A stretch of DNA of 64,000 bases. It comes from Variovorax sp. IB41. GTDB taxonomy: Bacteria > Pseudomonadota > Gammaproteobacteria > Burkholderiales > Burkholderiaceae_C. The stretch is from contig NZ_JAEFCB010000012.1 in the NCBI RefSeq assembly GCF_016405905.1, positions 62,001 through 126,000 on the forward strand, read 5' to 3'. Every line of letters begins with the position of its first letter. Position 1 is the first letter of the stretch. Shown here piece by piece: positions 53,535 through 63,878 of the stretch. A model generated the notes under the pieces. The model saw nothing but the letters and a program-made list of their open reading frames with translations, made no database searches and was not told the origin of the DNA. The translations under genes and the position numbers were made by a program.

Positions 53535-53561
53535 TTGGAGTTCCGTGATCGAAGCGATGAC

Positions 53562-53631: not shown

Positions 53632-54045
53632 TCACTTCGCGTCGGGTTCGGTGATGAAACCGATCTTGCGCACGCCGGCTTCCCGCGCTTCAGACATGGC
53701 CTTGGCCACGCGTTCATAGCGCACGGCCTTGTCGCCGCGGATGTGCAACTCGGGTTGCGGTTCCTTGGCGGCTTCGGCGGCGAGGCGGCTGGGCAATTCG
53801 CTGTCGTCGATCTTCGTTTCGTTCCAGTAGTAGCTTCCGTCGGCCGTGACGCTGAACAGGATGTTCTGCGGCTTGGGCTGCTCGGGCTCGCTGGTGGCGC
53901 GAGGAAGATCGATATTGACCGCGTGCTTCATCACCGGCACGGTGATGATGAAGATGATCAAAAGCACCAGCATGACGTCGACCAGCGGCGTCATGTTGAT
54001 CTCGTTCATCACCTCATCGGGTTCGTCTTGTGTTCCGAAGGCCAT
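53632..54045 (-). CDS. exbD: Biopolymer transport protein ExbD
   Basis: ExbD, 137 residues, part of the inner-membrane motor that powers TonB with the proton gradient. The single helix carries the essential Asp23 (MTPLVDVMLVLLIIFIITVPV region); the periplasmic domain follows. ExbD has the N-terminal acidic QDEPDEVMNEINMTP typical of the family. It begins five bases after exbB and is the last gene of tonB-exbB-exbD. Confidence 0.94.
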   Translation of the reverse strand: MAFGTQDEPDEVMNEINMTPLVDVMLVLLIIFIITVPVMKHAVNIDLPRATSEPEQPKPQNILFSVTADGSYYWNETKIDDSELPSRLAAEAAKEPQPELHIRGDKAVRYERVAKAMSEAREAGVRKIGFITEPDAK

Positions 54046-54050
54046 GGTGC

Positions 54051-54767
54051 TCAGCCCTTCTTGAGCGGAACCACGATGGCATCGCCGCTACCGCTTTGCA
54101 CGCGGGCGCCGGTGACGAAGTAGGCATGCAGGTCGTGTGCGAAGCTGTTGAGCTTGGTCAGTACGAACTTGTTGCCGCGAACCAGCGCGTTGTAGCCGAG
54201 CACGGCGGGAATCGCCACTGCCAGGCCGAGCGCCGTCATGATCAGCGCCTCGCCGATCGGGCCCGCCACCTTGTCGATGGTGGCCTGGCCGGCCGAGCCG
54301 ATGCTCATCAGTGCGTGGTAGATGCCCCACACCGTGCCGAACAGGCCGATGAAAGGTGCCGTGGAGCCCACCGATGCCAGGATGGCAAGGCCGGTTTGAA
54401 GGCGAGCGGTGAACGCGTCGATGCCGTTGCGCAGAGCGCGCGTGATCCAGTCGCTCACGTCGAGCGCATCGTGCAGGTGAGCCTTGGTGTTGCGGTGGTG
54501 TGCCGCCGCTTCGCGGCCTTCGAGCGCCAGCGCGCGGAAGGGGTTGCTGTCGTCCTTGCCGAGCTTGTTCAGCGCGGTGGCGAAGTCTTCGCTGTGCCAG
54601 AAGTCCTGCGAGTGCTTGGCGAGGCGCTTGTACTTGATGACGTCGAGCGCCTTGACGACGATCACGATCCACGATGCGAGCGACATGCCGATCAATAGCA
54701 CCGCGACGGCCTTGGTGACGAAATCGCCCTGATTCCAGACGTTCATCAAGCCGAATTGGGAGTCCAT
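54051..54767 (-). CDS. exbB: Biopolymer transport protein ExbB
   Basis: ExbB, 238 residues, of the MotA/TolQ/ExbB proton-channel family. Three helices: WNQGDFVTKAVAVLLIGMSL at the N-terminus, and GLAILASVGSTAPFIGLFGTVWGIYHAL and GEALIMTALGLAVAIPAVLGYNAL near the C-terminus. The pore threonines are in the second and third. It follows tonB by 14 bases. Confidence 0.94.
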   Translation of the reverse strand: MDSQFGLMNVWNQGDFVTKAVAVLLIGMSLASWIVIVVKALDVIKYKRLAKHSQDFWHSEDFATALNKLGKDDSNPFRALALEGREAAAHHRNTKAHLHDALDVSDWITRALRNGIDAFTARLQTGLAILASVGSTAPFIGLFGTVWGIYHALMSIGSAGQATIDKVAGPIGEALIMTALGLAVAIPAVLGYNALVRGNKFVLTKLNSFAHDLHAYFVTGARVQSGSGDAIVVPLKKG

Positions 54768-54781
54768 AAAGTGCCTTCTTG

Positions 54782-55501
54782 TTACTTGGGTTGATCAAAA
54801 ATAATGGACGCCGGAAGCATGAAAAGCGTGTCTTCGTTGGCGTTTGGAAATTGCGAGACGGTGAGCGAAGACAGTGCGACTGCATCACGGGCCGCCTTGT
54901 CCAGCCGGTCGTAGCCGCTGGACTTCTGTATCTCGGTACGTTTCACGGTGCCGTTGCGGGTGAAATAGACCGCGATGACCACGGTGCCGTATTCGCCGAG
55001 CCGGTCGCTCAGGGCAGGCCGCCGAGGGGCTGGCTTGCGCAGCCACTGTGCTTGCGCGGCGGTGACTTCGACAACCTTGGGCGCAGCGGGCGGTGCAGGC
55101 GGCGGCGCCGGCGGCGCTGGGGGAGCGGGTTCGGGTGCCGGAGGCGCGGGCGGCGGCGGCGGTTCGGTAGTTCCGACCGGGGCCGCAGGCGCCGGCGTCG
55201 GCTTGGGCTCGCGAATGGCCTGCGGTCGCGGAGGAGGCGGCGCCTTGGTCACCTTGGGCGGTGGGGGCGGAGGCGGCGGCGGGTCCACCTTGGGTTTCGG
55301 TGGCTCGACGAACTGGCTCATGATTTCCACCGGAATCACCACTTCGGCGGCCCGCCGCAGCAGGCCGCTTTGCAACGCCCAGAGCGCAGCCGCGTGAAAC
55401 AGGATGACGCCGCTCGCAATGACGACATTGCGCGAGAGGCCAAAAACCGAGGGGGGAGGGGCAAAGCGGTCAGACACGATCAACCATTCGAGTGCGGACA
55501 C
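54782..55501 (-). CDS. tonB: Energy transducer TonB
   Basis: TonB, 239 residues, links the ExbBD motor to outer-membrane receptors. An N-terminal anchor helix (VVIASGVILFHAAALWALQ, with the conserved His), a long Pro-rich spacer (residues 65-150, including runs of up to nine Pro), and the C-terminal domain with YFTRNGTVKRTEIQKSSGYDRLD are present. The polyproline runs should need EF-P for translation. It is first in tonB-exbB-exbD and lies 80 bases after bfd, probably on the Fur-controlled bfd transcript. Confidence 0.93.
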   Translation of the reverse strand: MSALEWLIVSDRFAPPPSVFGLSRNVVIASGVILFHAAALWALQSGLLRRAAEVVIPVEIMSQFVEPPKPKVDPPPPPPPPPKVTKAPPPPRPQAIREPKPTPAPAAPVGTTEPPPPPAPPAPEPAPPAPPAPPPAPPAAPKVVEVTAAQAQWLRKPAPRRPALSDRLGEYGTVVIAVYFTRNGTVKRTEIQKSSGYDRLDKAARDAVALSSLTVSQFPNANEDTLFMLPASIIFDQPK

Positions 55502-55540: not shown

Positions 55541-55615
55541 TTACTTGCGAAAAATCCACCAGACCGAGCCTGCAACCAAGATCAGGCTGCCGCCGAGTGC
55601 CGAGACGAGTTCCAT
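55541..55615 (-). CDS. Possible 24-residue single-helix membrane peptide
   Basis: A tiny frame, MELVSALGGSLILVAGSVWW then IFRK, that would span the membrane once with a basic C-terminal tail. It overlaps the 3' end of bfd by 34 bases and ends 39 bases before tonB. A weak GGAAAG/AAGG ribosome site precedes it. I do not know a family for it and it may be chance. Confidence 0.25.
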   Translation of the reverse strand: MELVSALGGSLILVAGSVWWIFRK

Positions 55616-55854
55616 GCCTTGCTTTCCGTGATGGAGCTGGCAAGCTGGATCGCCCTCGGACCCGATTCGCGGTTCAGCGCGGCGACCGGATGCGAAGCGC
55701 TGCACTGCGCGACGATATCGCGCGCACAACCTTCACATTGACCACACTGGGTGGCCACGCCAAGCTCGAATTGGACTTCGTCGAACGTCATGCCGGCTCG
55801 CACATGACGTGCGATTTCACGGTCGGAGACTCGGCGGCAGACGCAAACGATCAT
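55582..55854 (-). CDS. bfd: Bacterioferritin-associated ferredoxin
   Basis: Bfd, 90 residues, a [2Fe-2S] protein that reduces bacterioferritin cores to release iron. Ligand cysteines are Cys4, Cys6, Cys37 and Cys40 (IVCVCRRVSDREI and TQCGQCEGC). It is about 20 residues longer than typical Bfd at the C-terminus. Start at 55854 was chosen since it gives the standard MIVCVC N-terminus. A Fur-like box lies 46-67 bases upstream. The bacterioferritin gene itself begins beyond the right edge of the window. Confidence 0.93.
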   Translation of the reverse strand: MIVCVCRRVSDREIARHVRAGMTFDEVQFELGVATQCGQCEGCARDIVAQCSASHPVAALNRESGPRAIQLASSITESKAWNSSRHSAAA

Positions 55855-55899
55855 GGCGGTGAAAGCGGCAGTTGGCTGGCTGTTGGTTGCCCGATTATA

Positions 55900-55921
55900 A
55901 ATAAGAATCCATCGCATTTGC
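55900..55921 (-). promoter_or_regulatory. Fur-like box before bfd
   Basis: AATAAGAATCCATCGCATTT matches the betaproteobacterial Fur pattern in its outer arms (AAGAAT...CATTT) and lies 46-67 bases before the bfd start. It is a weaker match than the hemP box. Confidence 0.5.
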
Positions 55922-55969
55922 AATAACTATGGTGTTACCGGACTTTTGCGACGGTTCCTTGGCAACTCG

Positions 55970-56650
55970 CTACACCTCCGCCCAGAGCCGCAAAAGATTG
56001 TGATAGTGGCCCGTGAGCGCGACCGTCTCTTCGCACTCCCCGAGCCGGCCGCGCAATTTCTGGATGCTCTGGTCCAGCTCGAACAGCATGCTGCGTTGCT
56101 GATCGTTGCGCACCATGCTCTGGAGCCAGAAGAACGAGCAAACACGCGCCCCGCGAGTCACCGGATGAACGCGATGCAGGCTGCTCGCCGGATAAAGAAT
56201 GAGATCGCCAGCCGGCAGCTTGACCTCGTGCGATCCGTAGGTGTCGATCACCTCGAGTTCTCCCCCGTAGTAGTCCTCCGGATCGCACAGGAACAGCGTG
56301 CACGACAGGTCCGTGCGCAATTGCTGACCGCTTCCGGGCAGCGCACGAACCGCGCCGTCGACGTGAACCCCATAGTGCTCGCCGCCTTCATAGCGGTTGA
56401 AGAGCGGCGGAACGAACCGCGAGGGCAGCGCTGCCGAAAAGAAAAGCGAGTGACGCGCCAGCGCGGCCAGCACCGTGCTGGCGAGTTCGCGGCCGATGGG
56501 CGACGACTCCGGCAGTTGCTGGTTGCGCTTGACCTGCGCGCCCTGTTCGCCAACGGTCTCGCGGCCGTCGATCCAGCTGGTGGCATCCAGCGCCGCGCGC
56601 ATTTCGCGCACTTGGGTCGAGCTCAGGACCTCGGGCACATGCAGCATCAT
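55970..56650 (-). CDS. PKHD-type Fe(II)/2-oxoglutarate hydroxylase (PiuC/YbiX family)
   Basis: A 226-residue Fe2+-dependent dioxygenase. The iron facial triad is His96, Asp98 (YGVHVDGA) and His159 (SSLHRVHP); Arg169 would bind 2-oxoglutarate. Family members sit beside Fiu/PiuA-type catecholate siderophore receptors and are iron-regulated; their substrate is unknown, perhaps the siderophore. That pairing holds here, as the receptor gene is 87 bases upstream on the same strand. A hairpin terminator lies between them, so PiuC may be expressed at a lower level. Confidence 0.92.
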
Positions 56651-56737: not shown

Positions 56738-59116
56738 TCAGAACGCGAAGTTCGCGGTGATCTTCGCCGAGCGGGGCGTACCCGGCGTGTAGCGGTAGCC
56801 GCTCTTGTTGATGGCGGCCGCGTACTGCTTGTCGAACAGGTTGGAGACGTTCAGCTGGATGTCGATGTTCTTGTTGATGCGGTAGGACGCCATCGCGTCG
56901 AACACCCAGTAGGAGTCGATGTACAGCGGCGTGCCCACGGCGCCGTCGGTGCCGCGGTGCAGCTTGCCGTTGTAGCGCGCGCCGCCGCCGATGGTCAGGC
57001 CGAGCGGGAACTGGTAGGTGGTCCAGGCCGTGAAGGCGTTCTTGGGGGTGTAGACCAGCACGTTGGTGCCGTCGGCGGTCACGTTGGGGCCGCTCTGGAC
57101 CTTGGTGTCCATCGTCGTGAAGCCGGCCGTCACGCCCCAGCGCTCGGTGATGCTGCCCGCCACGCCCAATTCGATGCCCTGGACACGCTTCTTGCCGCTC
57201 TGGTAGTAAGCAGCGGTGTTGGTCGGGTCCTGCACGACTTCGTTGCTCACGTCCGTGCGATAGATCGCGCCGGTCAGCGACAGCTTGTCGTTCATCACGT
57301 CCCACTTCGTGCCGACTTCGAAGGTCTTGGCCTTCTGCGGCAGGAAGTCGGTGCGCGCGGCGCTGTTGCCCGAACCGGCGGCCGACAGCGAGAAGTTCGC
57401 GCCGCCCGGCGGCTGCGCCGAGGTGCCGTAGGCCGCGTAGATGCTGCCGTTCTTCGCGGGCTTGTAGACCACGCCGAGCTTGCCGGTGAACAGGTTGTCG
57501 GAGAGCTTGAGCGACGAGGGCACCAGCGTGCCGAGCGTCAGGCCCGGATTGGTCGTCGCGGTCGACAGCGTTGCGCCCTGGAACGACGTGCTGTAGTGGT
57601 CGAAGCGCAGGCCGCCGGTGATCTGCCATTGCTCGTTGAGCTTGACCGTGTCGAAGGCATAGAGGCCGACGGTGTTGGTCACGCCCTTGCTGTCGGCGCC
57701 GCTCTCGATGCGGCTGTAGCCGTTGACATAGGGATTGGGCGCATACAGGTTCGCGGCCGGCCAGGCGCCGTTCTGCACGACCCTGCCGTTGAATGTCGCG
57801 CCGGGGGCGAAGTAGCCCAGGTTGGTCTGTTCTTCGCGGATCAATTCAACGCCCGCGCTCAGCGAGTGGCTTACGCTGCCGGTGTCGAACTTGGCGGTCA
57901 CGTTCGTCTGGTTGACGAAGATCGTGTTTTCCTGGTTCTTGTTGGTCGGCGAGTTGCGTGTGACCGACCAGGTGGATGGCAGGCCGGGAACCGGCGTATC
58001 GAGAAACGCCGTGCCGGTCGCCGGACGCGCACCGGTGGCCGTGAGGCCGCCGAGCATGAACGACGTCAGCATGTAGTCCTGCTTCGTCTTGGCGTAGCGT
58101 GTGGTGTTGCGCAGCGTGACGTCGGGCGTGAAGTCGTGCTCGACGCGCGCGGTGAACATGTCCGCCGTCACCTTGTTGAAGTCGTAGGCCGTGCCGTAGA
58201 AGTTCTTCGGATCGACCGGTGCGGCGTAGTTCAGGAAGCTGCGGCGGCGTGCGCCGAGTGCCGTCGGATCGGGGTTCGAGTAGCTGGGCAGGCCGATGGT
58301 CGGCACGCCGCCGTCGGGGACGTTGTCCTGGTCGACGTGCAGGTAGTCGAAGTAGAAGCGGGTGGGCGAATTCAGGCCGAGCGCGATCGACGGTGCGATG
58401 GCTGTGTGCTTGTTCTTGACGAAGTCGCGGCCCACAACGCCCGCGTCTTCCACCACGGCGTTCAGGCGGAATGCGGCGCCGATGCCGTCGGCACCGCTGA
58501 GCGACTTGTTCCAGTCGATGCTGCCGCGTTTGTAGTCGGCGCTGCCGAACCCGATCGAGCCGACGAAGCTGTCGTCCAGCTTCGGCTTCTTGGTGACCAG
58601 GTTGATGTAGCCGGTGGGCGAGGTGCGACCGACGTCGGTGCCCGACGGGCCCTTCACCACTTCGACCTGCTCGATGTTGAACACGTCGCGCGAGATCGAG
58701 CCGAGGTCGCGAATGCCGTCCACGAAGATGCTGCTGGAGCTGTCGAAACCGCGCATGAAGACGGCGTCGCCGGTGTTCGTGTTGCCGTTCTCGCCGAGGA
58801 AGAAGGTGCCCACGCCGGGCGTGTTGCGCAGCGCTTCTGTCAACGTCGTCGCGCCCTGTTCGCGGATGACCTGTTCTTTGATCACCTGGACGGTCTGCGG
58901 CGTGTTGAGCAGCGGCGCGGTGAACTTGGGGTTGGCCGAGGTGTCGGCTTTGTAGTCGGCTGCGGGGGTGTCCTGCACGCGAATTTCGGGCAGCGAGCCG
59001 CCGGCTTGGGCGAACGCGGCCGGGGCCGCAAAGGCCATCAGCGTCGCGGCGGCAGCGCCAGAGAGGTGTGGAACGGCGCGCGCGACGGCGTGTTTGCGGC
59101 TCTTGATGTAGGCCAT
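56738..59116 (-). CDS. TonB-dependent siderophore receptor (Fiu-like)
   Basis: A 792-residue outer-membrane receptor. The signal peptide ends at AAFAQ (about residue 36). The plug begins with a TonB-box-like PEIRVQDTP, then FTAPLLNTPQTVQVIKEQVIREQG, and VEVVKGPSGTDVGRTSPTGYINLVTKKP. A 22-strand barrel follows, ending in FAF with the C-terminal aromatic used for BAM insertion. It groups with Fiu/PiuA-type receptors for catecholate siderophores, supported by the PiuC neighbour. A Fur-like box and a perfect inverted repeat precede it. Ligand inferred, not shown. Confidence 0.93.
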   Translation of the reverse strand: MAYIKSRKHAVARAVPHLSGAAAATLMAFAAPAAFAQAGGSLPEIRVQDTPAADYKADTSANPKFTAPLLNTPQTVQVIKEQVIREQGATTLTEALRNTPGVGTFFLGENGNTNTGDAVFMRGFDSSSSIFVDGIRDLGSISRDVFNIEQVEVVKGPSGTDVGRTSPTGYINLVTKKPKLDDSFVGSIGFGSADYKRGSIDWNKSLSGADGIGAAFRLNAVVEDAGVVGRDFVKNKHTAIAPSIALGLNSPTRFYFDYLHVDQDNVPDGGVPTIGLPSYSNPDPTALGARRRSFLNYAAPVDPKNFYGTAYDFNKVTADMFTARVEHDFTPDVTLRNTTRYAKTKQDYMLTSFMLGGLTATGARPATGTAFLDTPVPGLPSTWSVTRNSPTNKNQENTIFVNQTNVTAKFDTGSVSHSLSAGVELIREEQTNLGYFAPGATFNGRVVQNGAWPAANLYAPNPYVNGYSRIESGADSKGVTNTVGLYAFDTVKLNEQWQITGGLRFDHYSTSFQGATLSTATTNPGLTLGTLVPSSLKLSDNLFTGKLGVVYKPAKNGSIYAAYGTSAQPPGGANFSLSAAGSGNSAARTDFLPQKAKTFEVGTKWDVMNDKLSLTGAIYRTDVSNEVVQDPTNTAAYYQSGKKRVQGIELGVAGSITERWGVTAGFTTMDTKVQSGPNVTADGTNVLVYTPKNAFTAWTTYQFPLGLTIGGGARYNGKLHRGTDGAVGTPLYIDSYWVFDAMASYRINKNIDIQLNVSNLFDKQYAAAINKSGYRYTPGTPRSAKITANFAF

Positions 59117-59214
59117 GAAGTTATCTCCGAGAGAGGCGGCGAGCGGAAGGACTCGACTGGCGATGTCCGCACGCACGCTTTCAGCAGAGAAAACTGGGGG
59201 GACTGGCTGGGTGA

Positions 59215-59245: not shown

Positions 59246-59264
59246 GATGATAATGTTTCTCAAT
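59246..59264 (-). promoter_or_regulatory. Fur-like box before the siderophore receptor
   Basis: GATGATAATGTTTCTCAAT on the plus strand keeps both half-sites of the Fur consensus (GATAAT...TCTCA) and lies 130 bases before the receptor start. Confidence 0.65.
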
Positions 59265-59356
59265 ACCTTTGACCTCACCAAAATGCTGGCTAAGCCGAAA
59301 GTACCTTTGCTTTGTTGCCGGAGCGCAACTGTCGACAACGCTGGCGGCGGCCGAGG

Positions 59357-60715
59357 TCAGTAGACGTCGCGGCGATAGCGGCCGGTTGCCGACAGCTCGC
59401 GCCAGGAAGCATCGCCGACGATCTGCCTCAAAGCGGCGTCCACGCCCGACGCCATGCCCTGCAGGCTCCCGCACACGTAGATGGCCGCGCTGTTTTCGAG
59501 CCAGGCGCGCAGCGGATCGGCCGATTGCAGCAGCCGATGCTGCACATAAACACGCTCGGATTGGTCACGCGAGAAGACCATGTCGAGCCGTTGCAGCACG
59601 CCGTTGGCCTGCCAGCCTTCGATCTCCTCGCGGCACAGGAAATCGTGGGCCGTCTGCCGCTCGCCGAACACCAGCCAGTTGTCATTCCGACCCGCCGCCG
59701 CGCGAGCGCGCAGATGGGCGCGCAGGCCCGCCAGCCCGGTGCCGTTGCCGATGAGGATCAGCGGCCGGCTCTCGTTGCCGTCGAGGCGGAAGGTGCGATG
59801 CGGCCGCAGGCGGAGGGCGACGGTGTCGCCGACCGTGAGCGTCGAGGTGAGCAGCCCCGACGCCGTGCCGAGCGTGCCATCAGGATGCTGCTCCTGTCGC
59901 ACCAGCAACTGCAATTCGCCGTCGGTAGGCAGCGAAGCGATCGAGTAGTCGCGCGGCCGCGCCGGATCGCTTGCAACGGCGATCTGCACCAGATCGCCGG
60001 AGGCCCAGTGAGGCATTGCGCCTGATTGCGGCACCAGGCCGAGTTGGAAGACCGGAGCGCCTGCGCTGCCGGCGTTGAGCAGCTCACGCCTCGCGAGCCG
60101 CCATGGCGCGAATGCGCCAGCCGGATCTTCGTGGCCGACATCCGCGTCGCCCCACCGGGCCTGCCAGGCGGCCAGCGCAGCCGGATCGCTGTTGTCGACC
60201 TCGATGCATTCGAAGTCTCGCCTGGCGCCCGCCGCATGCAGCCACGCATCGAGCGCGCGGCCGAAGCCGCAAAAGTTCTTGTACTGCCGGTCGCCCAATG
60301 CCAGCACGCCATAGCGCAGCGAAGACAGGGTGACGGGCGAACCCATCACGCGCTCGGCGAACACGCTGGCACCGTCGGGTGCATCGCCCTCGCCGTACGT
60401 GCTCGCCACGAAGAGCGCGCGGCCTGCGGAACCCAGCGTGGCGGCGTCCAGGGCGTTGAGTTCCATCACGCGCACCGACTCACCTGCCGCGCGCAGTTGC
60501 CGCGCCGTCTGCCAGGCGATCGTCTCTGCCTGGCCGGTCTGGCTGGCGAAGAGGATGAGCGTGGGAGCTGCATCGCCGTCGGCTGAAAGCGCCGCCGCTT
60601 CTCGGGCAGCCGCGGTGCGCAGCCGTCGCTGTCGCGCATAGACGGCAAGGCACAGCGCCGTGTAGGCGGCTGCCGTGGCGCCCGCGCCCAGGGCGCGCAG
60701 CATCGCCTCGCTCAT
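59357..60715 (-). CDS. Membrane-anchored flavodoxin/FAD-NADPH reductase (CysJ-like)
   Basis: A 452-residue diflavin reductase. An N-terminal helix (about 9-27) anchors it. The flavodoxin domain follows (LILFASQTGQAET near 53-66, ASTYGEGDAPDG, LALGDRQYKNFCGFG), then the FAD domain (RDYSIASLPTDGE) and the NADP-binding part (ILIGNGTGLAGLRAHL, IYVCGSLQGM). The end, RRDVY, with terminal Tyr stacking on FAD, matches CysJ. The helix distinguishes it from soluble CysJ. It should pass electrons from NADPH to a membrane or periplasmic acceptor. The ATG overlaps the apbE stop by four bases. Confidence 0.88.
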   Translation of the reverse strand: MSEAMLRALGAGATAAAYTALCLAVYARQRRLRTAAAREAAALSADGDAAPTLILFASQTGQAETIAWQTARQLRAAGESVRVMELNALDAATLGSAGRALFVASTYGEGDAPDGASVFAERVMGSPVTLSSLRYGVLALGDRQYKNFCGFGRALDAWLHAAGARRDFECIEVDNSDPAALAAWQARWGDADVGHEDPAGAFAPWRLARRELLNAGSAGAPVFQLGLVPQSGAMPHWASGDLVQIAVASDPARPRDYSIASLPTDGELQLLVRQEQHPDGTLGTASGLLTSTLTVGDTVALRLRPHRTFRLDGNESRPLILIGNGTGLAGLRAHLRARAAAGRNDNWLVFGERQTAHDFLCREEIEGWQANGVLQRLDMVFSRDQSERVYVQHRLLQSADPLRAWLENSAAIYVCGSLQGMASGVDAALRQIVGDASWRELSATGRYRRDVY

Positions 60716-61716
60716 GCGCCGGCCTGCGCGAGCCAGGCGCGCGTGGCGCGCAGCTGTGGCGACGCGTCGCCGTGGCTGACGAACAGGGCCGCGACGTCGT
60801 GCCGCTCCGCGAAGGCCAGGCCCTCGTCCGGACCCAGCACGGTCAGCACTGTGGCCAGCGCATCGGCCTGCATGCACTGCGCATGCAGCACCGTGACGCT
60901 CGCCAGCGCGTGCGCGACCGGCTCGCCGGTGCGCGGGTCGATGGTGTGCGACCAGCGGCGCCCCTCATGCGCGCGGCGATGCCAGCGGTCGCCCGAGGTG
61001 GCGATGGCCATGTCGGCCAATGCAACACGCTGCATGGCCGCCGATTCGCCGTCGACAAGCACCTGCCACGGCTGGCCGTCAGGACGGCGCCCGATGCCCC
61101 GCAATTCCCCGCCGATTTCGAACAGCAGCTCGGTAAGGCCCAACTCACGCAGTGCCTCGACGCCGTGGTCGACAGCGAAGCCCTTGGCGATACCCGAGAG
61201 ATCGAGCGTGACGCCGCCCGGTTGCAGCAGGGCGGCGTTTGCTTCATCGAACGCCAGTTGCTGCCAGCCGGCGAGCGCACGCGCCGCGGCGAGTGTTTCG
61301 GGCGAGGGCAGGCCGCTCTCGGCTGCGTCAGGCCCGAATCCCCAGCAGGCGACCAGCGGACCCACGGTCGGATCGATCGCGCCTGCGCTGGCGCGCGCCC
61401 AGTGAAAGGCGCAGGCCATCACTTCGGCGAATTCCTTGGGCAACACATGACGCGAGCCCGCGGGCGCGCGGTTGAACCGGCTGATGTCCGACGCCGGCTC
61501 CCAATGGCTCATCTGCGCGATCACGCGCGCAAGCGCCGCTTCGACCGTCTCTCGCACCTTTTCCAGCGCAAGCATCCGAGGGTTGTCCAAGCGCAGCGAC
61601 CAGGTCGTGCCCATCGTCTGACCGCCCAGTTGCTGCAGGGTGGCGGGGTCCGCGCGGCGCGGGACGGCCGCGTTGGCGTAGCCGCCCGCGCGCCAGGTGC
61701 TGAAGGAAATTCCCAA
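60712..61716 (-). CDS. apbE: FAD:protein FMN transferase (ApbE)
   Basis: A 334-residue ApbE that links FMN covalently, through phosphate, to Thr or Ser of target proteins in the periplasm. Core motifs are LGGQTMGTTWSLRLD, LDLSGIAKGFAVDHGVEAL, IGGELRGIGRRPDGQPWQV and the Mg2+-binding SHTIDPRTGEP and MQADALATVLTVLG. No clear signal peptide or lipobox is seen, only a short N-terminal stretch (GISFSTWRAGGYANA), so export is uncertain. It lies between DUF4198 and the flavoreductase. The most likely target is the DUF2271 protein encoded two genes away. Confidence 0.93.
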   Translation of the reverse strand: MGISFSTWRAGGYANAAVPRRADPATLQQLGGQTMGTTWSLRLDNPRMLALEKVRETVEAALARVIAQMSHWEPASDISRFNRAPAGSRHVLPKEFAEVMACAFHWARASAGAIDPTVGPLVACWGFGPDAAESGLPSPETLAAARALAGWQQLAFDEANAALLQPGGVTLDLSGIAKGFAVDHGVEALRELGLTELLFEIGGELRGIGRRPDGQPWQVLVDGESAAMQRVALADMAIATSGDRWHRRAHEGRRWSHTIDPRTGEPVAHALASVTVLHAQCMQADALATVLTVLGPDEGLAFAERHDVAALFVSHGDASPQLRATRAWLAQAGA

Positions 61717-61731
61717 GGGAGCGCGCGCTTG

Positions 61732-62541
61732 TCAGGGCATCACTTCAAGGGTGGCCGCGTAGCTCAGGCGGCGTTCCTTGGCTTGCGGCACGGTGGTCTT
61801 GGTGTCCTTGGTGTTCGCGTCGAGCCAGTACATGCCGGCGGTCGGCCAAGTCACGCTGAACTGGCCCTTGTCGTCGGTCTTGAGCTTGATCTCCTCGAGC
61901 TTGTCGCGGTACTGCGTGTTGCCGGCGGTGACCGTCACTTCGAGGTTCTTCGCGGGTTGGCCGTCGAGGTTCAGCGTGAAGCTGGCTTTCTCGCCCTTGA
62001 CCAGATCGGTCGGGCTGCCGGCCACGATCAGTTCCAGCCCCTGGCCGATCGGCTTGAGTGCCGATGGCTTGCCGACCGTCACGAAGGTCTCGATGCGGCC
62101 GGACGACTGGGTGATGGTGACGTCCTGCGCGTCGGCCGGGATTTCCTTGCCGATCGTCTCGGCCGTGCCGCGTGCGCGCTTGTTCTGGCCCGTGGCCTTG
62201 TCCTTCCAGCTCGCGAAGGCGCCCGCGTTGATCACGGCGATGCGGTACGTGCCCGGCTGTGCCACGCTCACGTCGAACACGTTGCGCAGCTTGAGCTTGG
62301 CTTCGCTCTCGGGCTTGACGGTGCTGCCGTCGGGCGCGGTGATCTGCAGGCCATCGAGCCGCAGCGGCGCATGGTTCGCGACGAACAGGTCGTTCGACAC
62401 GGCGGCATCGATGCTCACGGTGTCGGCCTTCGAGAAGACGGTGGAGGAGGGCAGCAGCCAGGCGTTGTGCGCCATCGAAACGGAAGCGATGGCCGACAGG
62501 GCGATGGCGAGGCCGGTGGCGCGCAGGGTGGAACGGGTCAT
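61732..62541 (-). CDS. DUF4198 domain periplasmic protein
   Basis: A 269-residue exported protein of the DUF4198 family, often beside TonB receptors and metal genes. The signal peptide ends SVSMA, and cleavage would expose His25 as the new N-terminus in HNAWLLPSSTVFSKADTV. The C-terminal half is a carboxypeptidase-like or Ig-like beta domain (LEVTVTAGNTQYRDKLEEIK, GMYWLDANTK). Function unknown; metal handling is the common guess. It follows the DUF2271 gene by 49 bases and precedes apbE by 15. Confidence 0.85.
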   Translation of the reverse strand: MTRSTLRATGLAIALSAIASVSMAHNAWLLPSSTVFSKADTVSIDAAVSNDLFVANHAPLRLDGLQITAPDGSTVKPESEAKLKLRNVFDVSVAQPGTYRIAVINAGAFASWKDKATGQNKRARGTAETIGKEIPADAQDVTITQSSGRIETFVTVGKPSALKPIGQGLELIVAGSPTDLVKGEKASFTLNLDGQPAKNLEVTVTAGNTQYRDKLEEIKLKTDDKGQFSVTWPTAGMYWLDANTKDTKTTVPQAKERRLSYAATLEVMP

Positions 62542-62590
62542 GGGAAGTCCTTGAGGGATGAAGCTTGCAGAGAAGGGGGGCCGTCGTCGA

Positions 62591-63124
62591 TCAGGGCTTG
62601 AGTTCGAGCTTGATCTCGCCGAGCTCTTCCTTGCCGGCCGCGGTCGGCTGCGCTGCCGCGGTCGGTGGCCACTGGAACGGAATGCTCACGACCTCGCGGC
62701 CGCCGACTTCACGGGCCGCTTCGACCACCAGCTTGTAGGCGCCCGGCGCGAGCTTGGGCATCGGCGCTGTGCCTTCGTTGAAGCTCAACTGGTGCTTGCC
62801 GGCGGGCTTGGTGGCGCCGGTCACGCCATCGACAGGCACCGCGAGTTCGCGGCCGCCGCGGCGCCACCACTGGCGCATGTCCTTGAGCCACTTCGTGCCT
62901 TCGCCTTCGGGGTTGTTCGTCTTGGTGCGCACGTCGTACCAGACGGCCAGCGTGCCCGCGACCGTGTTGTCGGCGCGCTCGATCCACGTCGCCACGTAGG
63001 GGCGGTGGTACTCCGACGCGTTCAGCCGCGGGATCTCGATGTTGACGGCCAGGCTCGCCGCGAAGGCCGGGGTTGCGAGCAACGCCGACATGGCGATCGG
63101 CGCGAGTGAATAGCGAACGTGCAC
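62591..63124 (-). CDS. DUF2271 domain periplasmic protein with putative FMN-attachment motif
   Basis: A 177-residue exported protein with a signal peptide (cleavage after FAA, about residue 23). The DUF2271 core includes YVATWIERADNTVAGTLAVWYD, a Trp-rich segment (KWLKDMRQWWRRGGR) and DGVTGATKPAGKH at 99-111. Asp99-Gly-Val-Thr-Gly-Ala-Thr105 matches the D-G-x-S/T-G-A-T site where ApbE attaches FMN to NqrC and RnfG. The gene lies 33 bases after the PepSY gene and upstream of apbE, in one operon. Electron carriage by this protein is inferred. Confidence 0.85.
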   Translation of the reverse strand: MHVRYSLAPIAMSALLATPAFAASLAVNIEIPRLNASEYHRPYVATWIERADNTVAGTLAVWYDVRTKTNNPEGEGTKWLKDMRQWWRRGGRELAVPVDGVTGATKPAGKHQLSFNEGTAPMPKLAPGAYKLVVEAAREVGGREVVSIPFQWPPTAAAQPTAAGKEELGEIKLELKP

Positions 63125-63157
63125 GTGAAACCTCTTTTTCCTGAATCAATCGGTCAA

Positions 63158-63802
63158 TCAATGAATGAACAGCAGCGCGAGCAGCACCGGCACGACCAGC
63201 CCCATGCCCACCATCGGCCAGGTGAACGGTCGGTTGCCCGCGTGCATCTTGAGAATGAACAGCCCGGTGATCGAGAAGACCAGCGCGGCGCCCGCGAAGA
63301 TGTCGATGAACCAGCTCCAGGCGGCGCCGGTGTTGCGCCCCTTGTGCAGGTCGTTGAGGTAGGAGAGCCAGCCGCGGTCGGTGCGCTCGTATTCGATTTC
63401 GCCGTCGGCCAGACTCAGGCGCAGCCAGGCGTCGCCGCCGGGGCGGGGGAGCGAGAGATAGATTTCATCGTCCGACCACTCGGCCTCGCGGCCGGCGGTG
63501 CCGACGTCCCAGTTCTTCTGGACCCAGCCTTGCAGTTCGGAGGGCAGGGGCGCCTTGCCTTTTTGCGCCTTGGCAGCGGGCAATTGTTGTTCGAGCCGGG
63601 CGCGCAACGGCTCATCGATCGTGCCGTTCAACTTCGTGATCGCCGGCTTGGCTTCGATCTGCCCTGCGTGGTTGAGGGTGAAACCCGTGACGCTGAACAG
63701 GATCATGCCGATGAGGCAGATCGCGGAGCTCACCCAATGCCATTCGTGCAGGGTCTTGAGCCAGTAGGAACGGCGGCGGTTGTCGGGGCGGGTGGCAGTC
63801 AT
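63158..63802 (-). CDS. PepSY-associated TM domain protein
   Basis: A 214-residue inner-membrane protein. Helix 1 (about 24-44) is preceded by HEWHWVSS; a periplasmic PepSY-like part follows, then helices at about 163-184 and 194-213. Histidines 19, 22, 45, 153 and 187 sit at helix ends and resemble heme ligands of PepSY ferric reductases such as FoxB. It could be the transmembrane electron path of the operon. No clear ribosome site precedes ATG at 63802; a hairpin sits in its place. First gene of the operon, after a Fur-like box. Confidence 0.85.
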   Translation of the reverse strand: MTATRPDNRRRSYWLKTLHEWHWVSSAICLIGMILFSVTGFTLNHAGQIEAKPAITKLNGTIDEPLRARLEQQLPAAKAQKGKAPLPSELQGWVQKNWDVGTAGREAEWSDDEIYLSLPRPGGDAWLRLSLADGEIEYERTDRGWLSYLNDLHKGRNTGAAWSWFIDIFAGAALVFSITGLFILKMHAGNRPFTWPMVGMGLVVPVLLALLFIH

Positions 63803-63827: not shown

Positions 63828-63848
63828 GATGAGAATGACTGCTATTTG
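63828..63848 (-). promoter_or_regulatory. Fur-like box before the PepSY operon
   Basis: GATGAGAATGACTGCTATTT on the plus strand retains the GAGAAT and TATTT arms of betaproteobacterial Fur sites, 26-46 bases before the operon start. Confidence 0.6.
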
Positions 63849-63878
63849 GAGGCCGTTAAGTTACGTAAAGCAATAAAA

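Follow-up and report, generated by a model that had tools for sequence, protein, structure and literature searches.

A conserved PepSY, DUF2271, DUF4198 and ApbE operon of Variovorax sp. IB41: a probable periplasmic ferric reductase with predicted flavin loading in the cytosol

Gene organization and relation to described systems

The stretch analyzed here (the window) comprises 64,000 nucleotides of Variovorax sp. IB41 (contig NZ_JAEFCB010000012.1, positions 62,001 to 126,000), and five genes on its minus strand, at 59357-63802, are the subject of this study: a PepSY_TM_like_2 membrane protein (63158..63802; 214 amino acids; PF16357, 6.6e-83), a DUF2271 protein as the predicted periplasmic flavin carrier (62591..63124; 177 amino acids; PF10029, 5.7e-50), an exported DUF4198 protein with a metal-binding fold (61732..62541; 269 amino acids; PF10670, 2.3e-50), the flavin adenine dinucleotide (FAD):protein flavin mononucleotide (FMN) transferase ApbE with a TTG start (60712..61716; PF02424, 6.6e-80, 268.9 bits), and a diflavin reductase dependent on reduced nicotinamide adenine dinucleotide phosphate (NADPH), composed of a flavodoxin and a CysJ-like FAD/NAD part (59357..60715; PF00258 and PF00175). 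The intergenic gaps were 33, 49 and 15 bases, and the open reading frames of ApbE and the reductase overlapped by 4 bases. An earlier interpretation made from the letters alone (the sequence-only reading) had given the same five genes, order, gaps and overlap; the open reading frame coordinates and Pfam matches agreed with it, and its gene identities hold, each of the five families exceeding its Pfam cut-off. In a profile search of the 6.87 Mb genome, ApbE, DUF2271 and DUF4198 over the cut-off each occurred as one copy, all in the operon. Among the matches listed, the nearest named DUF2271 loci were those of Variovorax sp. CAN15 (97%) and V. boronicumulans (93%). The DUF4198 and ApbE genes share one reading frame, with TGA and five codons between them before the TTG (61717-61734), an arrangement that was not kept in the same-genus locus L105.

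Relatives were collected as all 87 distinct places at which PF10029 exceeded its cut-off, found in 43 of 299 genomes of the phylum and 44 of 200 genomes of the family (the window's genome in both). With P, D, 4, A and R denoting PepSY, DUF2271, DUF4198, ApbE and the reductase, a PepSY_TM_like_2 gene was near in 32 of the 44 places of the phylum set (PD4AR 12, PD4 7, PD4A 6, PD4R 4, PDAR 2 and PDA 1), the remaining 12 being D and A with fused R (7), D with fused R (1), D4 (3) and D alone (1). The 45 places of the family set were PD4AR (22), PDAR (2), PD4A (1), D-A-fused R (18), D with a shorter R (1) and D alone (1). Loci in which PepSY and reductase are fused are referred to as class II, and those of the window's type as class I. 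The order P, D, 4, A and R was also found in 70 of 80 named loci, the best 80 of at least 550 and thus selected for similarity to class I. The gene order is therefore conserved, and the random order in relatives that would have refuted the sequence-only reading was not seen.

This gene set is not new; the operon belongs, as an unremarkable member, to a system already described, and the sequence-only reading had its outline right. PepSY-like flavinylation systems share with the window operon the presence of PepSY, ApbE, DUF2271 and DUF4198 in one cluster, with iron reduction as the proposed function; 3220 such clusters were counted, 2833 with DUF2271 and 1500 with DUF4198, and 1077 PepSY genes had a NAD-binding domain (Méheust 2021, PMC8238504). 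The window locus conforms to the definition given there, which asks for a PF03929/PF16357 protein within a gene cluster associated with flavinylation. On the other hand, that survey kept, as the extracytosolic machinery, ApbE or FMN-bind genes bearing a signal or lipidation site, whereas in the window DUF2271 bears a signal, ApbE has none and the diflavin reductase is encoded by a gene of its own. Such a signal served as a filter in that survey and does not belong to its definition; the locus is filed by gene content, with its ApbE as a departure. In Caulobacter crescentus, CC_3059-3063 (CCNA_03155-03159) shows the identical five families and order, annotated as transporter, DUF2271, DUF4198, ApbE and sulfite reductase flavoprotein, and its expression increased under iron limitation and in a fur mutant (PMC3751524); the same locus was called a PepSY-like system, in which insertions reduced fitness with ethylenediaminetetraacetic acid (EDTA) (PMC11870441). 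Iron-induced proteins of Alteromonas join DUF2271 to a PF16357 or COG1477 domain (PMC7190382). The view in the sequence-only reading that no full description of the set existed is consequently true of its biochemistry only, since the set itself appears in PMC8238504, PMC3751524 and PMC11870441. The one unexpected feature of the operon is the predicted compartment of flavin loading.

Flavin carrier and the location of ApbE

DUF2271 of the window carries a Sec-type signal peptide and the motif D-G-V-T-G-A-T (62810..62830, minus strand), in which TGAT at residues 102-105 fits the flavinylation motif [S/T]GA[S/T] with Thr105 (codon 62810-62812) as the putative acceptor. A motif of this type is flavinylated in DUF2271 of A. 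ursilacus by its ApbE, and the flavin was lost on changing the acceptor threonine (PMC8238504). Among the 87 surveyed loci the acceptor Thr/Ser was kept in all, strict [ST]GA[ST] occurred in 54 and the other 33 read, for example, TGPT or TSAT; a signal was recognized by a simple rule in 81, one of them with a twin-arginine. The proposal of the sequence-only reading that DUF2271 is the flavinylated protein agrees with this motif.

No signal peptide was found in ApbE of the window: its frame stops six codons before the TTG, and there is no hydrophobic N-terminal stretch. Nevertheless, it keeps 19 of the 21 positions conserved at 90% or more in 68 control ApbEs, differing at two. The controls were the 30 ApbE loci given by the genome search and 40 picked down its ranking, excluding DUF2271 clusters, and for this reason lean toward high-scoring ApbEs. 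A signal was scored when an uncharged 10-mer with a mean hydropathy of at least 1.6, a positive n-region and a small-x-small site were present, from any start codon. Of the 70 control ApbEs fetched, 63 passed, and two of the seven failures (L166 and L176) proved to be DUF2271-linked themselves, leaving 68. By this rule, 63/68 controls but only 5/72 DUF2271-linked ApbEs carried a signal (67/72 failed), the five being one fusion (L036) and four (L075, L081, L138 and L146) whose stretch was judged too short or hydrophobic only in part; at a threshold of 2.2, the numbers were 60/68 and 2/72, respectively.

An ApbE without a signal peptide does not fit the usual picture of periplasmic flavinylation, in which membrane-bound ApbE puts FMN on secreted targets (PMC12052999), and leaderless ApbE together with its cysteine content (below) suggested that FMN is probably attached to DUF2271 in the cytosol, before Sec export. 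Its feasibility is indicated by the flavinylation of signal-less DUF2271 with signal-less ApbE, produced in E. coli (PMC8238504). No statement of cytosolic loading for this system was found in the open-licence passages and listings consulted. The cytosolic ApbE of Klebsiella pneumoniae is also without a signal peptide, but its target is the soluble cytoplasmic fumarate reductase (PMC12052999), whereas the sole candidate target found here is exported. That precedent would allow the window ApbE to be cytosolic and to serve mainly another cytosolic protein, a reading we regard as very improbable. Neither a second ApbE nor a protein of the FMN_bind, NQR2/RnfD or DUF3570 families was detected by the profile search of the genome, and D..[ST]GA[ST], found in 34/75 DUF2271 open reading frames, was rare or absent in the reductases (2/68), PepSY (0/55) and DUF4198 (0/55); without the D, the counts were 42/75, 8/68, 2/55 and 1/55, respectively. 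Of the 16 genomes with ApbE in a DUF2271 cluster, among 200, 12 had no other ApbE.

Cysteines, counted from the MGT motif onward, provided a second indication. Their mean number was 0.74 in the controls (n=68, 42 with none), 3.3 in leaderless class I (n=43), 4.08 in leaderless class II (n=24), 3.65 in named leaderless ApbEs (n=66) and 0.89 in signal-bearing DUF2271-linked ApbEs (n=9). Over 196 unique rows, at least two cysteines were present in 137/156 leaderless ApbEs, as in cytosolic proteins, in 0/20 signal-bearing DUF2271-linked relatives and in 3/20 controls, the latter being 20 of the 68 that were chosen for their closer position on the tree. In the window, ApbE has 3 cysteines and the reductase 5, and the exported DUF2271, DUF4198 and Fiu-type receptor proteins have none.

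The ApbE tree contained two leaderless clades, I (43 rows, Shimodaira-Hasegawa-like approximate likelihood ratio test (SH-aLRT) support 94) and II (24 rows, 100), with L036 outside both; when it was rebuilt without L036, a branch supported at 75 set clades I and II together apart from the other rows. L036 (5288-6763) is an ApbE-DUF2271 fusion with a signal peptide beside a PepSY gene, and a separate reductase was not found in that locus. With signal-bearing operon forms added, the signal state needs 5-6 changes on the tree. A short motif resembling R-V-L-I-P was seen within the 50 residues that precede the ApbE fold in 34/134 leaderless class I ApbEs (e.g. L255, L263, L282 and L298) and in 0/68 controls.

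Two observations set limits to this reading. First, the leaderless state is not found everywhere: another 22 rows, most of them from Lysobacterales, retain a signal or signal-like segment. In the named set, 16/76 ApbEs passed the rule at 1.6 and 8/76 at 2.2; the eight clear signals belonged to Luteibacter (4), Dokdonella (2), Lysobacter (1) and Allopusillimonas (1), L279 (Luteibacter) was signal-like by eye, and the four named Dyella rows were leaderless whereas those of Luteibacter and Dokdonella were not. Among 43 loci read from the order of genome G031, 38 had DUF2271 or DUF4198, and 13 of these 38 ApbEs had a signal or signal-like segment; the five loci without either gene include leaderless ApbEs of one genus (L356, L357 and L358; 5.4-5.5 kb fetched). 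Second, the rows are related and independent switches too few, so that the association between cysteines and signal cannot reach significance: there were 3-4 independent pairs on well-supported branches and 5 on all, of which 2.3-2.8 on average agreed with the prediction and about none ran counter to it, although a few of 200 pairings had one such opposing pair.

These signal-bearing orthologues in the same operon are also among the grounds for a different arrangement, in which the same reductase is combined with an ApbE that enters the periplasm along an unrecognized route and, like canonical ApbE, loads FMN there. Characterized ApbEs are mostly exported lipoproteins, and periplasmic placement was essential in early work (PMC12052999); moreover, all seven genomes with ApbE-less DUF2271 clusters have ApbE elsewhere, which passed the signal rule in 6/6 examined. 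Since the window reading frame has no room for a signal, and the cysteine content of leaderless ApbEs resembles that of cytosolic proteins, we consider this arrangement unlikely. With regard to the operon at large, we lean toward the view that in most bacteria possessing it a cytosolic ApbE loads FMN on the DUF2271 precursor, and that the loading side switched several times between close operons, followed by the cysteine content.

PepSY protein and its electron donor

Three transmembrane helices and one PepSY unit were predicted in the PepSY protein, for which the structure model had a mean pLDDT of 93.5; three helices were also indicated by hydrophobicity in 43/44 class I PepSY proteins shorter than 260 amino acids. 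Several histidines were conserved: H22 and H153 were invariant in 55/55 relatives, followed by H45 and H214 (49/55) and H187 (43/55). PepSY siderophore reductases of the FoxB/HiuB type share with the predicted window reductase a PepSY-TM protein, conserved histidines and ferric reduction at the inner membrane, but FoxB has four transmembrane helices and two PepSY domains, with no flavin partner mentioned in the part of its description available. Assignment of the window protein to the FoxB type was rejected on this architecture, in which two heme sites lie in a four-helix bundle with two PepSY domains, although H22 and H153 are kept. PepSY_TM matches over the cut-off lie at 7 places in the genome, including the window's own, two of them in one frame.

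In 26 class II survey loci, PepSY_TM, Flavodoxin and NAD_binding were fused into one protein of ~735 amino acids (Pfam domains checked on 3), with four transmembrane helices ahead of the flavodoxin and four conserved histidines (25-26 of 26); all adjoin DUF2271, and 25/26 also have ApbE. The class I PepSY protein aligned with the second PepSY repeat of these fusions (probability 95.4). Since it matches one fusion repeat, a homodimer may supply two heme sites. The fusion of PepSY to the reductase in class II suggested that the separate window reductase, which has one N-terminal transmembrane anchor (about residues 8-26), is the likely electron donor to the PepSY protein, in line with the source of electrons named by the sequence-only reading. 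In L043 (4633-6431), DUF2271 lies beside a Ferric_reduct, FAD- and NAD-binding protein in place of the PepSY protein.

Metal, iron neighborhood and electron acceptor

DUF4198 of the window has the fold and, as the predicted mature N-terminus, the histidine (His25, codon 62467-62469) typical of its metal-binding relatives; L138 was the sole one among 55 with Gln rather than His at the aligned position. Relatives bind nickel (PDB 9GCB; PMC12537917) or, in the Zcp entries (PDB 9MHI-9MHO), zinc, copper and cobalt, and a PepSY_TM protein of Bordetella supports copper oxidases (PMC13038864). A system handling copper, nickel, zinc or cobalt instead of iron nevertheless appears improbable: the window protein has Val where IsDUF4198 has its nickel ligand His18, the Caulobacter operon is under Fur/iron control with an EDTA fitness effect, and the window neighbors and Fur boxes concern iron. 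With no His at position 18, the second ligand differs from that in IsDUF4198 and Zcp, and Asp21 (51/55) and His33 (39/55) are conserved candidates.

These neighbors, all on the minus strand, are a Fiu-type TonB-dependent catecholate receptor (56738..59176) 180 bases downstream of the operon (1037.6 bits against the NCBIfam Fiu cut-off of 686), a PiuC/YbiX-type PKHD Fe(II) dioxygenase (55970..56650), a Bfd-like [2Fe-2S] protein (55582..55923) and TonB-, ExbB- and ExbD-type genes (53632..55501); a single FeoB copy is present in the genome. The iron context drawn by the sequence-only reading thus stands, whereas its Fur-like box before the first gene exists in a weaker form than implied. This box upstream of the PepSY gene (63831..63849, strand not assigned) has 11/19 matches to the E. 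coli Fur consensus, a number reached by 123/300 shuffles. With a matrix from the boxes of 27 relatives it scored 10.9, a value reached in 8/645 overlapping window tiles and 24/500 shuffles, and, with overlapping hits merged into separate sites, it stood fourth in the window behind 59249, 53561 and 55903; its core is kept in L105. The box upstream of the receptor (59249..59267, strand not assigned) is strong, with 15/19 matches reached by 0/300 shuffles, and strong Fur-like sites were also seen at 53561, near ExbD, and 55903, near the Bfd-like gene. Among the 55 relatives, upstream Fur-like sites were clearly enriched, occurring in 27 with at most 7 mismatches (4-6 expected) and in 20 with at most 6 (1-2 expected).

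The sequence-only reading took as acceptor the ferric iron brought in by the neighboring TonB receptor; for a receptor of the Fiu type, this would be a specific ferric catecholate siderophore. The position of this receptor and its strong Fur box are consistent with the proposal, as is the reduction of ferrioxamine by FoxB-type PepSY proteins (PMC13001220). In the survey of co-occurrence that it had called for, a TonB receptor matching the receptor profile lay within 5 kb in 35/55 class I loci, while none of the profile was found within this distance in the other 20. A TonB-related family was counted in 231/3220 PepSY clusters (PMC8238504), and Caulobacter insertions lower EDTA fitness with no siderophore named for the operon in the portion of PMC11870441 available. 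Large EDTA defects in Caulobacter also concern a separate adjacent gene pair, one a 2OG/Fe(II) (2-oxoglutarate and ferrous iron) dioxygenase (PMC11870441), whereas receptor and PKHD dioxygenase adjoin the operon in the window; the available parts of the Caulobacter reports mention no Fiu, PiuC or TonB array beside that operon. Chelates of EDTA or citrate may serve equally well. The siderophore as specific acceptor is a doubtful possibility, and "periplasmic ferric reductase" is a safer label than siderophore reductase. No receptor of the profile was near class II loci (0/26, e.g. L037 and L116), suggesting that their acceptor may differ.

Proposed pathway and implications

We judge it probable that the operon encodes a periplasmic ferric reductase of iron starvation, with the following electron path and cytosolic flavin loading. 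NADPH would reduce the membrane-anchored diflavin reductase, from which electrons would pass to the PepSY protein, probably a diheme assembly, and across the inner membrane to FMN on Thr105 of DUF2271; this FMN would then reduce ferric iron in the periplasm, where DUF4198 probably binds metal, and FeoB would import the ferrous product. The DUF2271 precursor would most likely receive its FMN from ApbE while still in the cytosol, ahead of Sec export. The genes, their order, signal peptides, motif, conserved histidines and uniqueness on which this proposal draws were read from sequence, and DUF2271 flavinylation, Fur control and EDTA fitness are carried over from relatives in which they were established elsewhere.

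The fused PepSY-flavodoxin-reductase relatives suggest which cytosolic protein may serve PepSY-type reductases as electron donor. Since this set of genes is common (DUF2271 occurs in 2833 PepSY-like clusters; PMC8238504), the site of flavin loading is a general question, for which natural pairs differing in the ApbE signal exist, Luteibacter with and Dyella without. If true, loading of an exported protein by an ApbE inside the cell would alter the rule of periplasmic ApbE; it would make periplasmic FAD unnecessary, the covalent cofactor being exported with the polypeptide, and would explain how iron-starved cells avoid FAD export.

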